From assembly GCF_000497245.1 (NCBI RefSeq), contig NZ_AWTC01000006.1:62001-126000 (forward strand): 64,000 nucleotides of DNA, in the 5' to 3' direction. Positions 5,402-50,514 of the stretch are shown piece after piece; position 1 is the stretch's first letter; every line of letters starts with the position of its first letter. The notes below the pieces were generated by a model. That model was not told where the DNA came from. It was given only the letters and a program-made list of their open reading frames with translations, and made no database searches. Origin of the DNA: Sporolactobacillus laevolacticus DSM 442. Its GTDB lineage: Bacteria; Bacillota; Bacilli; Bacillales; Sporolactobacillaceae. A program made the position numbers and the translations under genes.

Positions 5402-5659
5402 TTAATTCGCCTCCAGTTTGTGCCCACATATCTGACAATATTGTTGATCATGTTTGAGTTCCTCGTTTTCGCATACGTGGCATACTTTCCTTAAAAACTC
5501 TGTTGCAAAGCATCCCCTAAATCCTTCAAGCCACACGACTTTTGAACCGCACATTTCGCTTTCATCCGTTCTGACCGTCCAAACTTTGTCCCTATACTTT
5601 TCAGCCTCTCGGCACGTATGCATCACGACTTTGTCACCTTTTTTGAGTGGTTCACTCAT
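5402..5659 (-). CDS. Small phage protein with C-terminal zinc ribbon
   Basis: A protein of 85 residues starting at ATG 5659 after GGAAGGGAG. The N-terminal part (KKGDKVVMHTCREAEKY) looks like a small beta-barrel or KOW-like fold. The C-terminus has a four-cysteine zinc ribbon (CHVCEN then CQICGHK). The role is unknown; the ribbon suggests nucleic-acid or protein contact. It overlaps the gene before by eight bases and abuts the DUF1064 gene, so all three are coupled. Confidence 0.6.
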   Translation of the reverse strand: MSEPLKKGDKVVMHTCREAEKYRDKVWTVRTDESEMCGSKVVWLEGFRGCFATEFLRKVCHVCENEELKHDQQYCQICGHKLEAN

Positions 5660-5999
5660 CGCTCTTGCTCCCTTCCTGATTCTCAATCACTTTTAATGCT
5701 GCCAAACAAATAGCTTTTTCAGCTGATTCATCGCTTTGAGCATTAACTATCGGATGAGCATCGTTCTCATATCTCATTGCGACCCATATATTTAGCGATC
5801 GATAAAGTTCATCCAGTTTAAAAAAATTAAATACTTCCCAAGCGTCTTTCATATTTCCAGTTGGGTTCCATTCAGTCCAGTATCCATCTTTAGGTGAACA
5901 AGCTCCAATTATGGGATATGGCGAATTATCATACATTACTTCAATATCCGTGTAACCTAACTTCTCAGCTAACTTGCGATCGATCTCAAGATTGTTCAT
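5652..5999 (-). CDS. Phage ABA-sandwich (BC1872-like) protein
   Basis: A protein of 115 residues. It begins with a short helix (DRKLAEKLGY), then aromatic segments (YWTEWNPTGNMKDAWEVFNFF), and ends with AEKAICLAALKVIE. This pattern of an early Trp-rich part, AWEV and a terminal AICLAAL helix matches the small phage proteins described as ABA-sandwich or BC1872-like. The role is unknown. ATG 5999 lies inside the end of the small membrane protein gene upstream. Confidence 0.6.
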   Translation of the reverse strand: MNNLEIDRKLAEKLGYTDIEVMYDNSPYPIIGACSPKDGYWTEWNPTGNMKDAWEVFNFFKLDELYRSLNIWVAMRYENDAHPIVNAQSDESAEKAICLAALKVIENQEGSKSDE

Positions 6000-20229: not shown

Positions 20230-21438
20230 ATGTACTTTGATACAATAAAGTTAAAAAGCGGTACTCGATATATTTGCTCTGAGGATGGACCGCACAATCC
20301 AGTAACTGGTAAACGCAGACAAATTCGTCGTAGAGGTAAAACAAAAAAAGAAGCAAAAGCAAAAGTCGAAAAAGTTATCAAACAACTCGAAGGGCTTGTT
20401 TATGTTGATGTTAAAAAGTTGGAAAAAACACCTTTTGATCGACTGGCTACTAAATGGTTAGATTTTTACTCTGTAAATGCAGGCGTCAAAAAAAATACCA
20501 TAAGAAAAAGATCGAAGGAAATTAAAGTACTCAATCGATATATTCCTAAGGTACCAATCGGTAATGTGAGTCCGCTGATGTACCAGGATATTTTAACTGA
20601 TTTAGCAAATAATGATTACGCAAAAAATACAATTTCTGGAATCCATTGTACAGCAAATATGATTTTCAAACAGGCAGTCGCATGGAAGATGTTAAAGGAA
20701 AATCCATGCCAGAACGCTACAATTCCAAAAAAGCCAAAAACGATTGAAGATGTCAAAAAAGAAAGCATTGAAAATAAATATTTCGAAGATGAAGAACTAG
20801 ATCTTTTTCTTGACGCTGTTGATGAATTTGGACTTTACAATGATCGAGCGATTTTCTACACATTGCCGTTTACTGGCCTTCGTTCTGGTGAACTATGCGC
20901 ATTACTATGGGAAGATATTGATTTTGAAAATAGCACATTGAGTGTGTCAAAAACAATTTATACGGAAAATGACAACATGCGTGAATTTGAACTGACAACA
21001 CCAAAAACGATCACATCGGCGCGGATTATTACAGTTGATCCGGACATTATGATGATGTTAAAAAAACATCGATCAATTCAAGCAAAGGTGAAACTTCAGA
21101 ATCCTGGATACTATGACGATGAAAAATTCGTTATTGCGCGACCTAATGGGTATCCACTATTTCCATATGACATTGGCCGACATATGAAGCGCTTATTAAA
21201 GAAAACCACAATTGAAAAGTACTTAACACCTCACGGTCTACGTCACACACATATCAGTATGCTTACAGAAATGGGTACAGACTTGAAATCAATCATGGAC
21301 CGCGTAGGCCATAAAGATATGAAAACAACGATTGAAATTTACACACACGTCACTAAAAAAATGAAAAAGAACACATCTCAGAAAGTGACCCATTATCTGA
21401 GAAATGTTCTTAAAAGAGAAGTAGCAGAAACAAAATGA
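20230..21438 (+). CDS. int: Tyrosine recombinase, phage integrase
   Basis: A protein of 402 residues with the usual Bacillales phage integrase layout: an N-terminal arm-binding part (RQIRRRGKTKKEAKAKVEK), a core-binding SAM-like domain (about 65-165), and a catalytic domain with Arg in TGLRSGELCALLW, Lys in a beta hairpin, His-x-x-Arg in TPHGLRHTHISML, a second His in VGHKDMKTTIEIYTHV and its Tyr nucleophile. ATG 20230 follows AGAGGAGG. It inserts and, with a directionality factor, excises the prophage. It is the rightmost recognisable phage gene. Confidence 0.95.
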   Translation: MYFDTIKLKSGTRYICSEDGPHNPVTGKRRQIRRRGKTKKEAKAKVEKVIKQLEGLVYVDVKKLEKTPFDRLATKWLDFYSVNAGVKKNTIRKRSKEIKVLNRYIPKVPIGNVSPLMYQDILTDLANNDYAKNTISGIHCTANMIFKQAVAWKMLKENPCQNATIPKKPKTIEDVKKESIENKYFEDEELDLFLDAVDEFGLYNDRAIFYTLPFTGLRSGELCALLWEDIDFENSTLSVSKTIYTENDNMREFELTTPKTITSARIITVDPDIMMMLKKHRSIQAKVKLQNPGYYDDEKFVIARPNGYPLFPYDIGRHMKRLLKKTTIEKYLTPHGLRHTHISMLTEMGTDLKSIMDRVGHKDMKTTIEIYTHVTKKMKKNTSQKVTHYLRNVLKREVAETK

Positions 21439-21498: not shown

Positions 21499-21738
21499 TC
21501 ACTTCATCTTGCTCATCATGTCCATCATTTTACTCATCATTTCGTCGCATTTGTGCATACAGCTCATCATTTCATCTTTGTTCATCATCATGTCGTCCAT
21601 CATCATATCCATGCCCGACATTCGTTCCATCATCATATTCATGCATTTCATTTGGCAAACCATCTTTTCCATTTCCATCATCATCATCATGTTCATCTGC
21701 ATCATCATTGACTTGTTCATCATGTCCATTTTTTCCAT
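21499..21738 (-). CDS. Extremely methionine-rich protein (38 Met in 79 residues) with two CxxxC motifs
   Basis: A protein of 79 residues, 38 of them Met (48%). ATG 21738 follows a strong GGAGGG ribosome site. Runs such as MMMQMNMMMMMEMEKM alternate with charged residues, which gives an amphipathic all-helical profile with one Met-coated face. Cysteines occur only as C28-x3-C32 and C60-x3-C64; CxxxC in helices binds Cu(I) in Csp copper-storage proteins, and Met clusters bind copper in other families. No signal peptide, so cytoplasmic. Codons for the other residues vary, which argues against a mere ATG repeat. Copper binding or oxidant buffering is inference; it lies downstream of tandem SAM riboswitches. 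Confidence 0.75.
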   Translation of the reverse strand: MEKMDMMNKSMMMQMNMMMMMEMEKMVCQMKCMNMMMERMSGMDMMMDDMMMNKDEMMSCMHKCDEMMSKMMDMMSKMK

Positions 21739-21961
21739 CGTAAAATCCCTCCAGAATTTGTTTTGAGGAAAAAAATCGTTTCGACTTAACGAAAAAGCAA
21801 CGGTAATCGATTCCTTTCCACAACCTAAATTTACCATGGAAAAGAGGCGGAATCAAAGCATATTCGCAGTTTCAAAAATAGTGTGTAATCGAAAAGGGAC
21901 ATGAAAGCTTGCTCCCACGCCTTTTCTCGTATTCTATTAATAAAAAAGATCTATGAGTTAC

Positions 21962-22300
21962 TCAACAAATTCTTTGATTTTGGACTCTCAGCCGATCAAT
22001 TTCTTTACCTAATTCAATTCTGCGCTGCTTCAAAGTAAATAATTCAGCCTTTAAATCATCAGCTGGAAACTGAGCATCGCTACGTAATTGCTGATACAAG
22101 TTGAGAATTCTGCGGTTTACATAAGTAAACTGCTCCTGCAAATCTTTCTCTTTCAGCTTTTCAAAATCGTCTCGGCCATTCTGAAGTTCAGCCAACTTTC
22201 TCTTAATCTCTTCCTGCCATTCATGGTCGTGAAGCTGCTTAGCATAAAGATACAAATCCAGATAGTTATCTACTTGCGCGTATTTTGCATGACTTGACAT
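21962..22300 (-). CDS. Hypothetical coiled-coil protein downstream of tandem SAM riboswitches
   Basis: A protein of 112 residues. ATG 22300 lies eight bases after AAGGGG; a TTG two codons upstream is less likely. All-helical, charged, with heptad leucines (IKRKLAELQNGRDDFEKLKE, FTYVNRRILNLYQQLRS, ELFTLKQRRIELGKEIDRLR). No membrane part, no family recognised. Its leader contains two SAM-I aptamers, so it should be made when S-adenosylmethionine is low. No sulfur-metabolism motif is visible, so either the gene belongs to that response in an unknown way, or a deletion has joined the riboswitch to it. Confidence 0.6.
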   Translation of the reverse strand: MSSHAKYAQVDNYLDLYLYAKQLHDHEWQEEIKRKLAELQNGRDDFEKLKEKDLQEQFTYVNRRILNLYQQLRSDAQFPADDLKAELFTLKQRRIELGKEIDRLRVQNQRIC

Positions 22301-22314
22301 ATACAAAACCCCTT

Positions 22315-22403
22315 CTTATCTTCATTCCGGAATTAGCACGGTACTTATTTTAAGCCCGTTGCTGAGACTTCATGGGGCCGGTCCCTCTGCCTCTCTTGAT
22401 AAG
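22315..22403 (-). promoter_or_regulatory. SAM-I (S-box) riboswitch, distal copy of a tandem
   Basis: On the minus strand the S-box elements appear in order: CTTATCAAGAGAGGC, GAGGGACCGGCCC, ATGAAG, CAGCAAC, GTGCTAATTCC and closing GATAAG. The P1 helix is CTTATC/GATAAG. The ribosome site AAGGGG starts right after P1 and no terminator follows, so control may act on translation. Confidence 0.9.
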
Positions 22404-22426
22404 AATGATCCGGCTATTTTTCACTA

Positions 22427-22476
22427 AGAAAAATGAAAAGCGATCATTTTCTTAAAGATCAAGAAAAATAATCGCT
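22427..22476 (-). terminator. Riboswitch terminator of the proximal S-box
   Basis: AGCGATTATTTT and AAAATGATCGCT pair on the minus strand, followed by TTTCATTTTT. The 5' arm can instead pair with AAAAATAA just after the aptamer, which gives the antiterminator. Classical SAM-dependent transcription control. Confidence 0.8.
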
Positions 22477-22497
22477 ACATCCGCTCGGCTTATTTTT

Positions 22498-22597
22498 CTT
22501 ATCTCTCAGATTTACTCTGCTGGAATTAACACCATGCACATCTAATGTGCTGGTTGTCGGGTTTCATTGGGCCAGTCCCTCCACCACTCTAGATAAG
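22498..22597 (-). promoter_or_regulatory. SAM-I (S-box) riboswitch, proximal copy of a tandem
   Basis: Minus strand: CTTATCTAGAGTGGTGGAGG, then GACTGGCCC, ATGAAACCC, GACAACC, a hairpin, TGGTGTTAATTCC, and GAGAGATAAG. All conserved S-box cores are present. It senses S-adenosylmethionine and, through the terminator at 22427-22476, stops transcription when SAM is high. Confidence 0.92.
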
Positions 22598-22615
22598 ATT
22601 TATTTGATTAATGTT

Positions 22616-22644
22616 ATTGTAACCTCAAGAAAAGATCTTGTCAA
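22616..22644 (-). promoter_or_regulatory. Promoter of the tandem S-box leader
   Basis: TTGACA (22639-22644) and TACAAT (22616-22621) on the minus strand are exactly 17 bases apart; the transcript would start about 10-15 bases before the first aptamer. Confidence 0.85.
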
Positions 22645-22691
22645 CGATTTTAATATTAGTTTTCCGGTCGGATTTAAATAATTAATGAATA

Positions 22692-22967
22692 CTAGTTCTC
22701 CAACGTTGTCCGGGCTTTGTGATACATGCCAATGATGCGTTTCGCGATTGGGACAAGTTTCTCACCTTGATCCGATAATTTGATGCCGCGTCCCTGACGG
22801 ACAAAAAGGGTGACACCTAAATCATTCTCCAAAGCCTGAATTCGCGATGTAACAGATGGCTGGGATAGAAACAGTTTTTCAGCCGCGATATGGAAACTAC
22901 TATATTTTGCTACTAAAAGAAATGTATTCAATTGATCAATCGTCAAGGCATCATCACTATCCCTCAT
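22692..22967 (-). pseudogene. LysR-family regulator reduced to its HTH domain
   Basis: The 91 residues left (from ATG 22967) match only the N-terminal DNA-binding part of a LysR regulator: LTIDQLNTFLLVAKYSSFHI, AAEKLFLSQPSVTSRIQALE, LGVTLFVRQGRGIKLSDQGE, then a short linker that ends at LEN. A complete LysR protein has about 290 residues; the effector-binding domain is absent and the next S-box promoter follows at once. The leader has its own SAM riboswitch. In B. subtilis the LysR gene ytlI (ascR) of sulfur-compound uptake has an S-box leader, so this is perhaps a remnant of such a gene. A free-standing HTH protein is the alternative. Confidence 0.7.
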
Positions 22968-22989
22968 TATCAATTCAACGTTATTATCA

Positions 22990-23030
22990 TAAAAAAGAGC
23001 CTTCTTCTTATGATAAGAAAGAGGCCCTTA
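22990..23030 (-). terminator. Riboswitch terminator before the LysR remnant
   Basis: Minus strand GGGCCTCTTTCTTA pairs with TAAGAAGAAGGCTC with a few mismatches and is followed by TTTTTT. It lies just after the S-box aptamer and ends shortly before the gene. Confidence 0.8.
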
Positions 23031-23046
23031 GTTATGCATCTCATCT

Positions 23047-23148
23047 CTTATCTCTCAGACCCAAACACGAATCTGCCGGAATTAACACCATGCGTTTATG
23101 CTGGTTGTCGGGCTTCACAGGGCCGGTCCCTCCGCCTCTCTTGATAAG
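23047..23148 (-). promoter_or_regulatory. SAM-I (S-box) riboswitch before the LysR remnant
   Basis: Minus strand: CTTATCAAGAGAGGCGGAGG, GACCGGCCC, GTGAAGCCC, GACAACC, GGTGTTAATTCC and GAGAGATAAG. All S-box cores are present. The terminator at 22990-23030 forms its expression platform. Confidence 0.93.
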
Positions 23149-23166
23149 AAATATTTTGTTGTTTTG

Positions 23167-37269: not shown

Positions 37270-37685
37270 ATGCATTATTCATGTTCTGTAAGCCATGTTC
37301 TGTACTTTCGCACTCAAACGGAGCTGCACGCTCCTCGTACAAAAGCGGCAATCATCTATCTACAGAAGTATCTGTCCCTTTTTCCGTTTGATTCCTTCCA
37401 AAGGGTTCCTCTACCAAGTTTGAGTTTCCCGCTCGAGGGGTTTACCGCGTTCCACTTCTTTTGTTTCCAAAAGATATCGTCTCTATGGCACTTTATGGGA
37501 TGGCAAGCCATATTCCCAAAGGAACACAGGCTTCTCTCCCGCCGTTAACCCAGATTGCTCCGAGCTACCCTGGCTTATGACTTCGCCAGGCACGAACACT
37601 ACGGTCATCACAGACCGTGCGAGCATGGACTTTCCTCTATATTCGCAAAGAATACAGCGATCACCCGAACACGAACAATGTCACA
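37270..37685 (-). ncRNA. rnpB: RNase P RNA, type B
   Basis: The minus strand has the type B core: GTTCGGGTGATCGCTG near the 5' end, GAGGAAAGTCCATGCTCGCA, GGGTAGCTCGGAGCAATCTGG-like segment, GCTTCTGTGTTCC, and the 3' part with TACAGAACATGGCTTACAGA. The length of about 415 bases is near the 401 of B. subtilis. It cleaves tRNA leaders. The place between gpsB and ypsC is conserved in Bacillales. Ends are approximate. Confidence 0.95.
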
Positions 37686-50181: not shown

Positions 50182-50514
50182 TGTTCAAAAAGGAGGACAA
50201 AAAGGGCCGAGGTCAGGCAGAACGCCACGTCCTGTAGCATGCCTGACACTAGCTCGTCTTGAGCGTCGAAGGTCAAGGAAACGCCGTTTCGAGCACCGGA
50301 GCGTACTTATATAGGATGTAGTGACTTCAACGTTGCGTACAGGACGTACGCGTTCTTAGTTGAAGTTCCCCTATGAAATACGTGAGGAGCGGAGAAACAA
50401 GTTGACGTAGAACTCCCACAGGATGTGGTGATTTCTGCGTTGGGCACAGGACGTGCACGTAATTAGCAGAAGATCCTTCTTACCCCTTTTCCCGGACTTT
50501 TTGAACAACCTCTT
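50182..50514 (-). repeat. Dispersed repeat, copy 2 (long form, about 333 bp, with hairpin modules)
   Basis: The reverse complement has the same ends and backbone as the two 150-bp copies (TGTTCAAAAAGTCCGGGAAAA, GCTCCTCACGTATT, ACGCTCCGGTGCTC, TTTCCTTGACCTTC, GGCCCTTTTTGTCCTCC). Three hairpin modules are inserted, each holding GTCCTGT or its complement; two of them are homologous to each other. AAAGAATC flanks both ends. No coding content. About 570 bases between genes are taken up mostly by this element. Confidence 0.8.

Follow-up and report, generated by a model that had tools for sequence, protein, structure and literature searches.

A conserved and apparently undescribed family of small methionine-rich proteins, with a recurrent partner gene, possibly serving methionine homeostasis in Sporolactobacillus laevolacticus and its relatives

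The window analyzed here, a stretch of 64,000 nucleotides from S. laevolacticus DSM 442 (contig NZ_AWTC01000006.1, positions 62,001 to 126,000; positions given without a locus name are those of the window), carries a genuine protein-coding gene whose product is nearly half methionine. Such proteins apparently constitute an undescribed conserved family of 65-83 residues. They are usually encoded beside a second small gene, which lies downstream of SAM riboswitches in one of the two lineages where the pair occurs. We tentatively propose that the two genes take part in methionine housekeeping.

Selection for methionine in the window protein

The Met-rich gene (21499..21738, minus strand, with its ATG at 21738 and its stop codon ending at 21499) encodes 79 residues, including 38 Met (48%). 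Its four cysteines, the only ones, form the motifs C28-x3-C32 and C60-x3-C64, as an earlier note made from the sequence alone had described. The GGAGGG ribosome-binding site that it placed before the ATG was likewise recovered, 8 nt 5' of this codon (21747..21752, minus strand), and is common to all six intact Sporolactobacillus copies. These come from 15 genomes of the genus; the raw search gave seven of 15, and the match in G006 was discarded, showing 29% identity and an internal stop. A second match in the genome of S. laevolacticus itself, with internal stops, was dropped as due to chance. A scan of named genomes with the window protein retrieved one locus, in S. shoreicorticis LMG 29111.

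Comparison of the six intact copies argues that methionine itself is under selection. In the 38 Met columns, 565 pairwise comparisons yielded 5, 17 and 7 differences at codon positions 1, 2 and 3 (0.9, 3.0 and 1.2%), against 74, 40 and 192 in 610 comparisons of the 41 non-Met columns (12.1, 6.6 and 31.5%). The variation of non-Met codons claimed from the single sequence is thus borne out, the third positions differing in 31.5% of comparisons versus 1.2% in Met columns. Since ATG is kept while other third positions drift, selection acts on methionine and the gene is not a drifting ATG repeat. Furthermore, all length differences among the six copies are whole codons. A repeat artefact, which the earlier note had kept in view, is therefore ruled out by the codon pattern and by the in-frame homologues: related genomes carry homologues with intact frames, and in the sole broken copy the remaining ATG codons are likewise gone. 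This copy, in a seventh Sporolactobacillus genome (G014), is a 48-codon remnant whose second half has been replaced; a search of G014 for the missing half, run without a positive control, did not locate it at another site.

The helical arrangement of methionines proposed for the window protein is weakly apparent, its 80-120 degree periodicity being equalled by 5.7% of shuffles; the fraction of such shuffles fell below 5% for two of the seven family members tested. On the opposite strand, a His-rich ORF (21553-21711, plus strand) mirrors the ATG codons as CAT and bears no sign of being a gene. Elsewhere in the window, two Bacillaceae-1 RNAs lie near each other (50308-50482, minus strand) and an RNase P class B RNA occupies 37284-37672 (minus strand).

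An apparently undescribed protein family

Profile searches identified 26 Met-rich loci in eight families, to which Paenibacillus cellulosilyticus adds a 27th. Six of the 26 belong to Sporolactobacillus, five (G052, G054, G169, G313 and G421) to four other families of the same order, 12 to f50, two to f58 and one to f90. The f50 genomes are large and may be Paenibacillus-like. Within the order of the window, the protein or its growing profile matched four of 299 and seven of 397 genomes, the two sets overlapping. In four families searched separately, matches were found in 2/43, 1/34, 1/12 and 1/16 genomes (sets that overlap others), and the class-wide search matched 18 of 398 genomes, which overlap the order and family sets.

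Composition was computed from 25 full-length loci, corresponding to 23 distinct sequences with start codons picked by ribosome-site score; two proteins of 40 residues (L053 and L127) and the 48-residue remnant (L052) were left out. Among these 23 sequences, Met accounts for 29-49% of residues (median 46%) and Cys for 1.4-11% (median 5%; one to eight residues). Together they make up 43-56% in 22 sequences and 35% in the remaining one. Other hydrophobic residues (A, V, I, L, F, W and Y) reach 0-14%, with a median of 1.4%, and F, W or Y occurs in only two sequences. Cys64-Asp65-Glu66-Met67 is invariant in all 23, as are Met19, 23, 26, 33, 35 and 57. Of the four cysteines of the window protein, C64 alone is invariant across the family, and the homologue of G169 has a single Cys. 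Five sequences contain two CxxxC motifs, 11 contain one and seven contain none, the paired motif being restricted to five of the six Sporolactobacillus copies. Judged by sequence, the family is hence defined by its Met content and its C-D-E-M end, and the twin CxxxC is a feature of Sporolactobacillus. Of the short proteins above 35% Met with paired CxxxC that the earlier note proposed to search for, Met-rich homologues do exist, but the paired motif is confined to these five sequences.

The family libraries agree with the previous statement that no described family fits. Pfam holds no family for the window protein (E <= 1) or for three homologues (E <= 0.1), nor does NCBIfam for the same four proteins; there was no PHROGs family for the window protein and no PADLOC family for the window protein and one homologue. 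No solved structure matched the Met-rich profile by sequence. Moreover, among the matches listed in the literature searched, in which few subscription journals are included, the available excerpts contain no description of the family or of the gene pair. The newness of the family is meant in this sense, as absence from the family libraries and from the excerpts of the literature searched.

A recurrent partner gene

In the window, the partner gene (21962..22300, minus strand) lies 5' of the Met-rich gene on the same strand and encodes 112 residues predicted to be all-helical; its ATG is at 22300, with a TTG at 22306 as alternative start. A profile built from four partner proteins had matches in 25 of the 397 genomes searched in the order. 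Three of these matches (G068, G080 and G362), at E ~1e-3, are doubtful and enter none of the other partner counts. A partner homologue lies 41-248 nt from the Met-rich ORF (ORF to ORF) in 21 of the 26 loci. The two genes are in tandem, partner first, in the six Sporolactobacillus loci and G054, and convergent in G052, G169 and 12 f50 loci. No partner is nearby in the other five: G526 and G313 are near a contig end, and G421, G617 and G750 have none within ~5 kb. The Met-rich gene of G313 is flanked by what we take to be an IS3-like element. Between the convergent genes of four f50 loci from two genera (L117, L120, L124 and L126), a terminator-like hairpin with a common AGCAGACKAACTGCA core can be seen by eye.

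A new case was predicted from this linkage. A search of plasmids with an f50 partner alone retrieved one record, from P. cellulosilyticus (NZ_CP054613.1, 33% identity). There, a 75-residue ORF with 47% Met, ending in QQCDEMMTMMMSMMRQMKETAV, is convergent to the partner. The stretch of this record that holds the Met-rich ORF has no gene entered in the (incomplete) gene table of PLSDB.

The partner also occurs without a Met-rich gene, at 16 loci in the order of the window; this count excludes the second copies L047, L050 and L051, whose genomes also carry the Met-rich pair. Copies without an adjoining Met-rich gene in Sporolactobacillus (L060-L063, L066, L067 and the three second copies) are near flagellar genes, presumably csrA, fliW, flgK and flgL.

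None of the partners tested belongs to a named family at its cut-off. The nearest is DUF7667, which the window partner matches at 20.2 bits, below the Pfam gathering score of 27 bits; of seven other partners, three scored 14.2-17.7 bits and four gave no match at E <= 0.1. Among the matches listed, the available excerpts of the literature on the S-box, SAM riboswitches and Met-rich proteins do not describe the partner gene.

SAM riboswitches and transcription signals

Three SAM riboswitches are found within 840 bases (22313-23150, minus strand), of which two stand in tandem 5' of the partner gene; the locus thus holds 3 of the 17 SAM riboswitches of the genome. The first, RS1 (23045..23150, minus strand, 82.1 bits), is 5' of an ORF of 93 residues cut down to a LysR-type DNA-binding domain (22692..22973, minus strand; PF00126, 73.3 bits), which lies between RS1 and RS2. 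Similar LysR-type ORFs recur in Sporolactobacillus (L047-L052). RS2 (22496..22599, minus strand, 89.0 bits) is preceded by a promoter-like TTGACA-17-TACAAT (22616..22644, minus strand) with 11 of 12 matches in a promoter scan; another promoter-like site is 5' of RS1, the scan having returned ten such sites in the region versus 6.4 expected. Downstream of RS2, a terminator-like hairpin (22439..22476, minus strand) is followed by a T-rich run; the fold of 22405-22495 has a z-score of -3.3, and the hairpin is not in the terminator-scan list. RS3 (22313..22405, minus strand, 79.3 bits) abuts with its 3' end the AAGGGG ribosome site of the partner, and its control may therefore be translational. 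With a terminator after RS2 and a ribosome site beside RS3, the two apparently differ in output.

The riboswitch recurs with the partner in the order of the window. RF00162 scored above its gathering threshold 5' of the partner at all ten loci of the order that have a Met-rich gene or remnant; seven of these come from one genus, and the loci are not independent of one another. Among the 16 partner-only loci, eight have a same-strand SAM riboswitch upstream (five of them in one genus), directly so in six and at 0.5-0.7 kb in G009 and G012. By contrast, none of the 13 partners from the 12 f50 loci and P. cellulosilyticus has one. The SAM link is therefore not universal. According to the available excerpt of PMC9943018, this riboswitch class controls genes for methionine, cysteine and SAM. 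Within the order of the window, the partner accordingly resembles members of the S-box regulon, but differs from them in falling, for the proteins tested, into no named family at cut-off.

The Met-rich gene is itself not preceded by a SAM riboswitch in the window or at L040, L041, L043 and L064, and in a relaxed-threshold Rfam search of six Met-rich loci nothing but SAM riboswitches and one tRNA exceeded the gathering scores. A structured leader before the window gene was considered and rejected (fold z-score of -0.6). The gene appears to have its own promoter, a TTGATT-17-TAAATT with an extended -10 TG (21828..21856, minus strand), recognized by eye from the consensus and absent from the list of the promoter scan, whose cut-off is stricter. 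By eye, the form TTG...CATGGTAAATT is found in the six intact Sporolactobacillus copies, and CATGCTACATT before the remnant of G014. Furthermore, the gap between the partner and the Met-rich gene contains a terminator-like hairpin (21898..21921, minus strand; -16.1 kcal/mol, z-score of -2.65), the terminator scan having found one versus 1.2 expected in shuffles. Because of this promoter-like sequence and this hairpin, the Met-rich gene is probably transcribed separately from the partner. The Met-rich genes of G421 and G313, which belong to different families, share a similar leader with a AGAAGCGC...GCGCTT inverted repeat (L065 ~5490-5610, minus strand, and L053 ~5560-5700, plus strand).

Genomic neighbours and mobility

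Neighbouring ORFs of the Met-rich loci were read by eye and only some were compared with Pfam; those read include no recurrent gene for a protease, a Met transporter or Met synthesis. In G421, whose Met-rich gene has no partner nearby, 114 nt separate this gene from a downstream tRNA-Met(CAT) of the same orientation (L065 5080-5155, minus strand), the acceptor stem of which seems by eye rich in G-T pairs. It is the only tRNA found on the 184,015-base contig, scanned in stretches. The contig also encodes an Alp7A-like actin; such actins presumably serve plasmid segregation, and we take the contig to be plasmid-like. Scans of further Met-rich loci and of the window revealed no tRNA.

In the window, a tyrosine integrase gene (20230-21438, plus strand) ends 60 nt from the Met-rich gene. 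Integrase pieces are also near the Met-rich copies of G007 and, by eye, of G005 and S. shoreicorticis; several Sporolactobacillus genomes (the window, L048, L049 and L050) have an integrase gene or pieces thereof ending just past the Met-rich gene. The site may thus be an edge at which integration recurs. However, we lean against the Met-rich gene being cargo of a mobile element: no direct repeat pairs the end of the gene with a distant att-like site among the 20 of 21 repeat families shown for 1-24000, and no integrase was recognized beside the copies of G052, G054, G169 or the f50 loci. When Met-rich proteins served as queries, phages, plasmids and viral contigs gave zero matches, the family being masked by the low-complexity filter. 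Indeed, the P. cellulosilyticus protein fails to retrieve its own plasmid record, which indicates that the filter hides the family and that the zero matches are no evidence of absence. The partner as query retrieved nothing from phages or viral contigs and one record from plasmids.

Predicted structures

AlphaFold2 models were computed from two-row alignments (window and S. shoreicorticis). The Met-rich protein is predicted to form a helical hairpin of residues 2-42 and 47-77 (mean pLDDT 79.8, pTM 0.60), which on the strength of this model is probably the fold of the family. The partner is modelled as four helices (pLDDT 82.7, pTM 0.54), the last two of which match coiled-coil hairpins. With this model, the best Foldseek E value was 0.18, and VIA-align gave a best Z of 10.8 over 69-72 residues to antiparallel coiled coils of a generic kind, among them the arms of seryl-tRNA synthetase and segments of SMC. 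A match of its coiled coil to JetA (E 0.0003) was weak and was set aside as generic coiled coil. Since these matches are generic, no function follows from them.

A possible methionine reserve and its alternatives

The function of the family is a proposal. Methionine housekeeping is the best reading because the partner has a SAM riboswitch in one lineage and an almost half-methionine neighbour in both. We tentatively favor, short of thinking it probable, a two-gene methionine-homeostasis module in which the Met-rich protein is a reserve and the SAM-controlled partner promotes release. When methionine is plentiful, the Met-rich protein would be produced from a vegetative-type promoter of its own and tie up Met and some Cys in the cytosol. 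As SAM falls, the riboswitches would let the partner be made; the partner, through its coiled-coil hairpin, might then bind the Met-rich protein, perhaps at the C-D-E-M end, and promote its release or breakdown, returning methionine to the pool, the direction of this effect being a guess. By order-of-magnitude arithmetic, 100,000 copies would store ~4 million methionines. The more specific idea of a dedicated bacterial methionine bank, an all-methionine-core hairpin drawn on through the riboswitch-controlled partner, appears rather unlikely to us.

Several observations speak for a reserve: the Met codons are conserved, and the linkage of the two genes spans two lineages and two gene orders. 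A lone tRNA-Met beside the G421 gene would be expected if synthesis of the protein strains the supply of this tRNA. Against it, partners of the second lineage lack the riboswitch, the Met-rich gene has none of its own, and either gene can be found with the other missing from its vicinity. The Met reservoir, one of three functions suggested in the earlier note, gains from the methionine-linked partner, but a pure store would need neither the invariant C-D-E-M nor the fixed Met positions, and this counts against it.

A cytosolic sponge for Cu(I) or Ag(I), in which Met thioethers and a few Cys thiolates would bind the soft metal in the core of the hairpin, is in our view unlikely, although Met and Cys, as soft-metal ligands, could bind copper or silver. 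Met and Cys together do reach the high proportions given above, at least one CxxxC is present in 16 of the 23 sequences, and C64 is invariant. From the modelled helix limits, the turn at 43-46 would place C28 at roughly the height of C60 on the facing helix. Moreover, a protein with a copper-amine-oxidase N-terminal domain (L128 2012-3013, minus strand) is encoded ~2 kb from the Met-rich gene of G617. A c-di-GMP-I riboswitch is located 5' of this oxidase-domain gene, and near the Met-rich gene of G648 is a secreted protein that we take to resemble a copper-dependent polysaccharide monooxygenase (L117 2734-4113, minus strand). The likeness to the copper-storage proteins Csp1 and Csp3 lies in a small, helical, sulfur-rich protein with, in some members, CxxxC on helices. 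However, CxxxC is not conserved in the Met-rich family, which has a median of 46% Met and one to eight Cys, versus 18-19 Cys in the four-helix bundle of Csp3 according to the available excerpt of PMC5171941. The paired CxxxC, from which a Csp-like sponge had been suggested, does not carry that argument, being confined to five of 23 sequences, all from Sporolactobacillus; seven sequences have no CxxxC, and the homologue of G169 has one Cys. The Pfam family of copper-binding four-helix bundles was unmatched by the window protein and three homologues. Among the neighbouring ORFs read, some of which were run against Pfam, no copper-handling operon and no copper efflux or copper-sensor gene was recognized, and the control of the partner, where known, is by SAM. 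The copper reading is thus weakened and has little support from context.

Two weaker readings deal with the methionines differently. The side chains could act as bristles, a flexible all-Met hairpin and its partner binding hydrophobic segments or nucleic acid; the M domain of the signal recognition particle (SRP) is the model for such binding. The fixed Met positions, the invariant C-D-E-M in two lineages and the recurrent helical partner would suit this mode, but it leaves unexplained the SAM control, the near-total loss of other hydrophobics and the adjacent tRNA-Met, and we regard it as improbable. An oxidant sink, in which the Met residues would absorb reactive chlorine or oxygen species and be recycled by methionine sulfoxide reductases, seems more improbable still. 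The extreme Met content would fit, as would an ArsC/Spx-family gene preceding the Met-rich gene in G052 (L044 5718-6116, minus strand) and a nitric oxide synthase gene adjoining it in G054 (L045 3932-5008, plus strand). Yet each of these neighbours is found in one genome only, no msr gene was recognized in the neighbourhoods read, the N-terminus (MEKMDMM...) has by eye no obvious signal peptide, and the SAM-controlled partner is left unexplained. The comparison here is with MrpX, which Melnyk et al. in 2015 reportedly described as a periplasmic Met-rich scavenger of hypochlorite linked to a methionine sulfoxide reductase. MrpX likewise is small and extremely rich in Met; it is reportedly periplasmic and Msr-linked, whereas the window protein has a partner with SAM riboswitches.

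Finally, it is very improbable that the S-box acts by antisense, the partner transcript made at low SAM entering the convergent 3' end of the Met-rich gene and silencing it, with protein formed only at high SAM: the convergent gaps of 41 nt (G169) and 67 nt (G052), in loci whose partners each have a SAM riboswitch, and the precedent of ubiG-mccB-mccA in C. acetobutylicum (available excerpt of PMC9943018) would allow it, but seven loci of the order are in tandem, where the transcript would be sense, both convergent gaps contain by eye a terminator-like hairpin, and no riboswitch is present in P. cellulosilyticus or at any of the 12 convergent f50 loci. Such control would be compatible with the methionine reserve, as a possible layer of it.

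Significance

With ~46% Met and almost no other hydrophobic residues, the family departs from the rules that protein composition usually follows. If the metal model were true, the family would represent a copper sponge based on Met and not on Cys. If the reserve model were true, it would represent amino-acid storage of a new kind, functionally similar to the methionine-rich seed storage proteins of plants, which serve as a high-Met reserve; the Met content of the plant proteins is below that of the Met-rich family, and we know of no sequence relation between the two. Cyanophycin is a nitrogen store. A methionine bank, if real, would be its sulfur-amino-acid counterpart.
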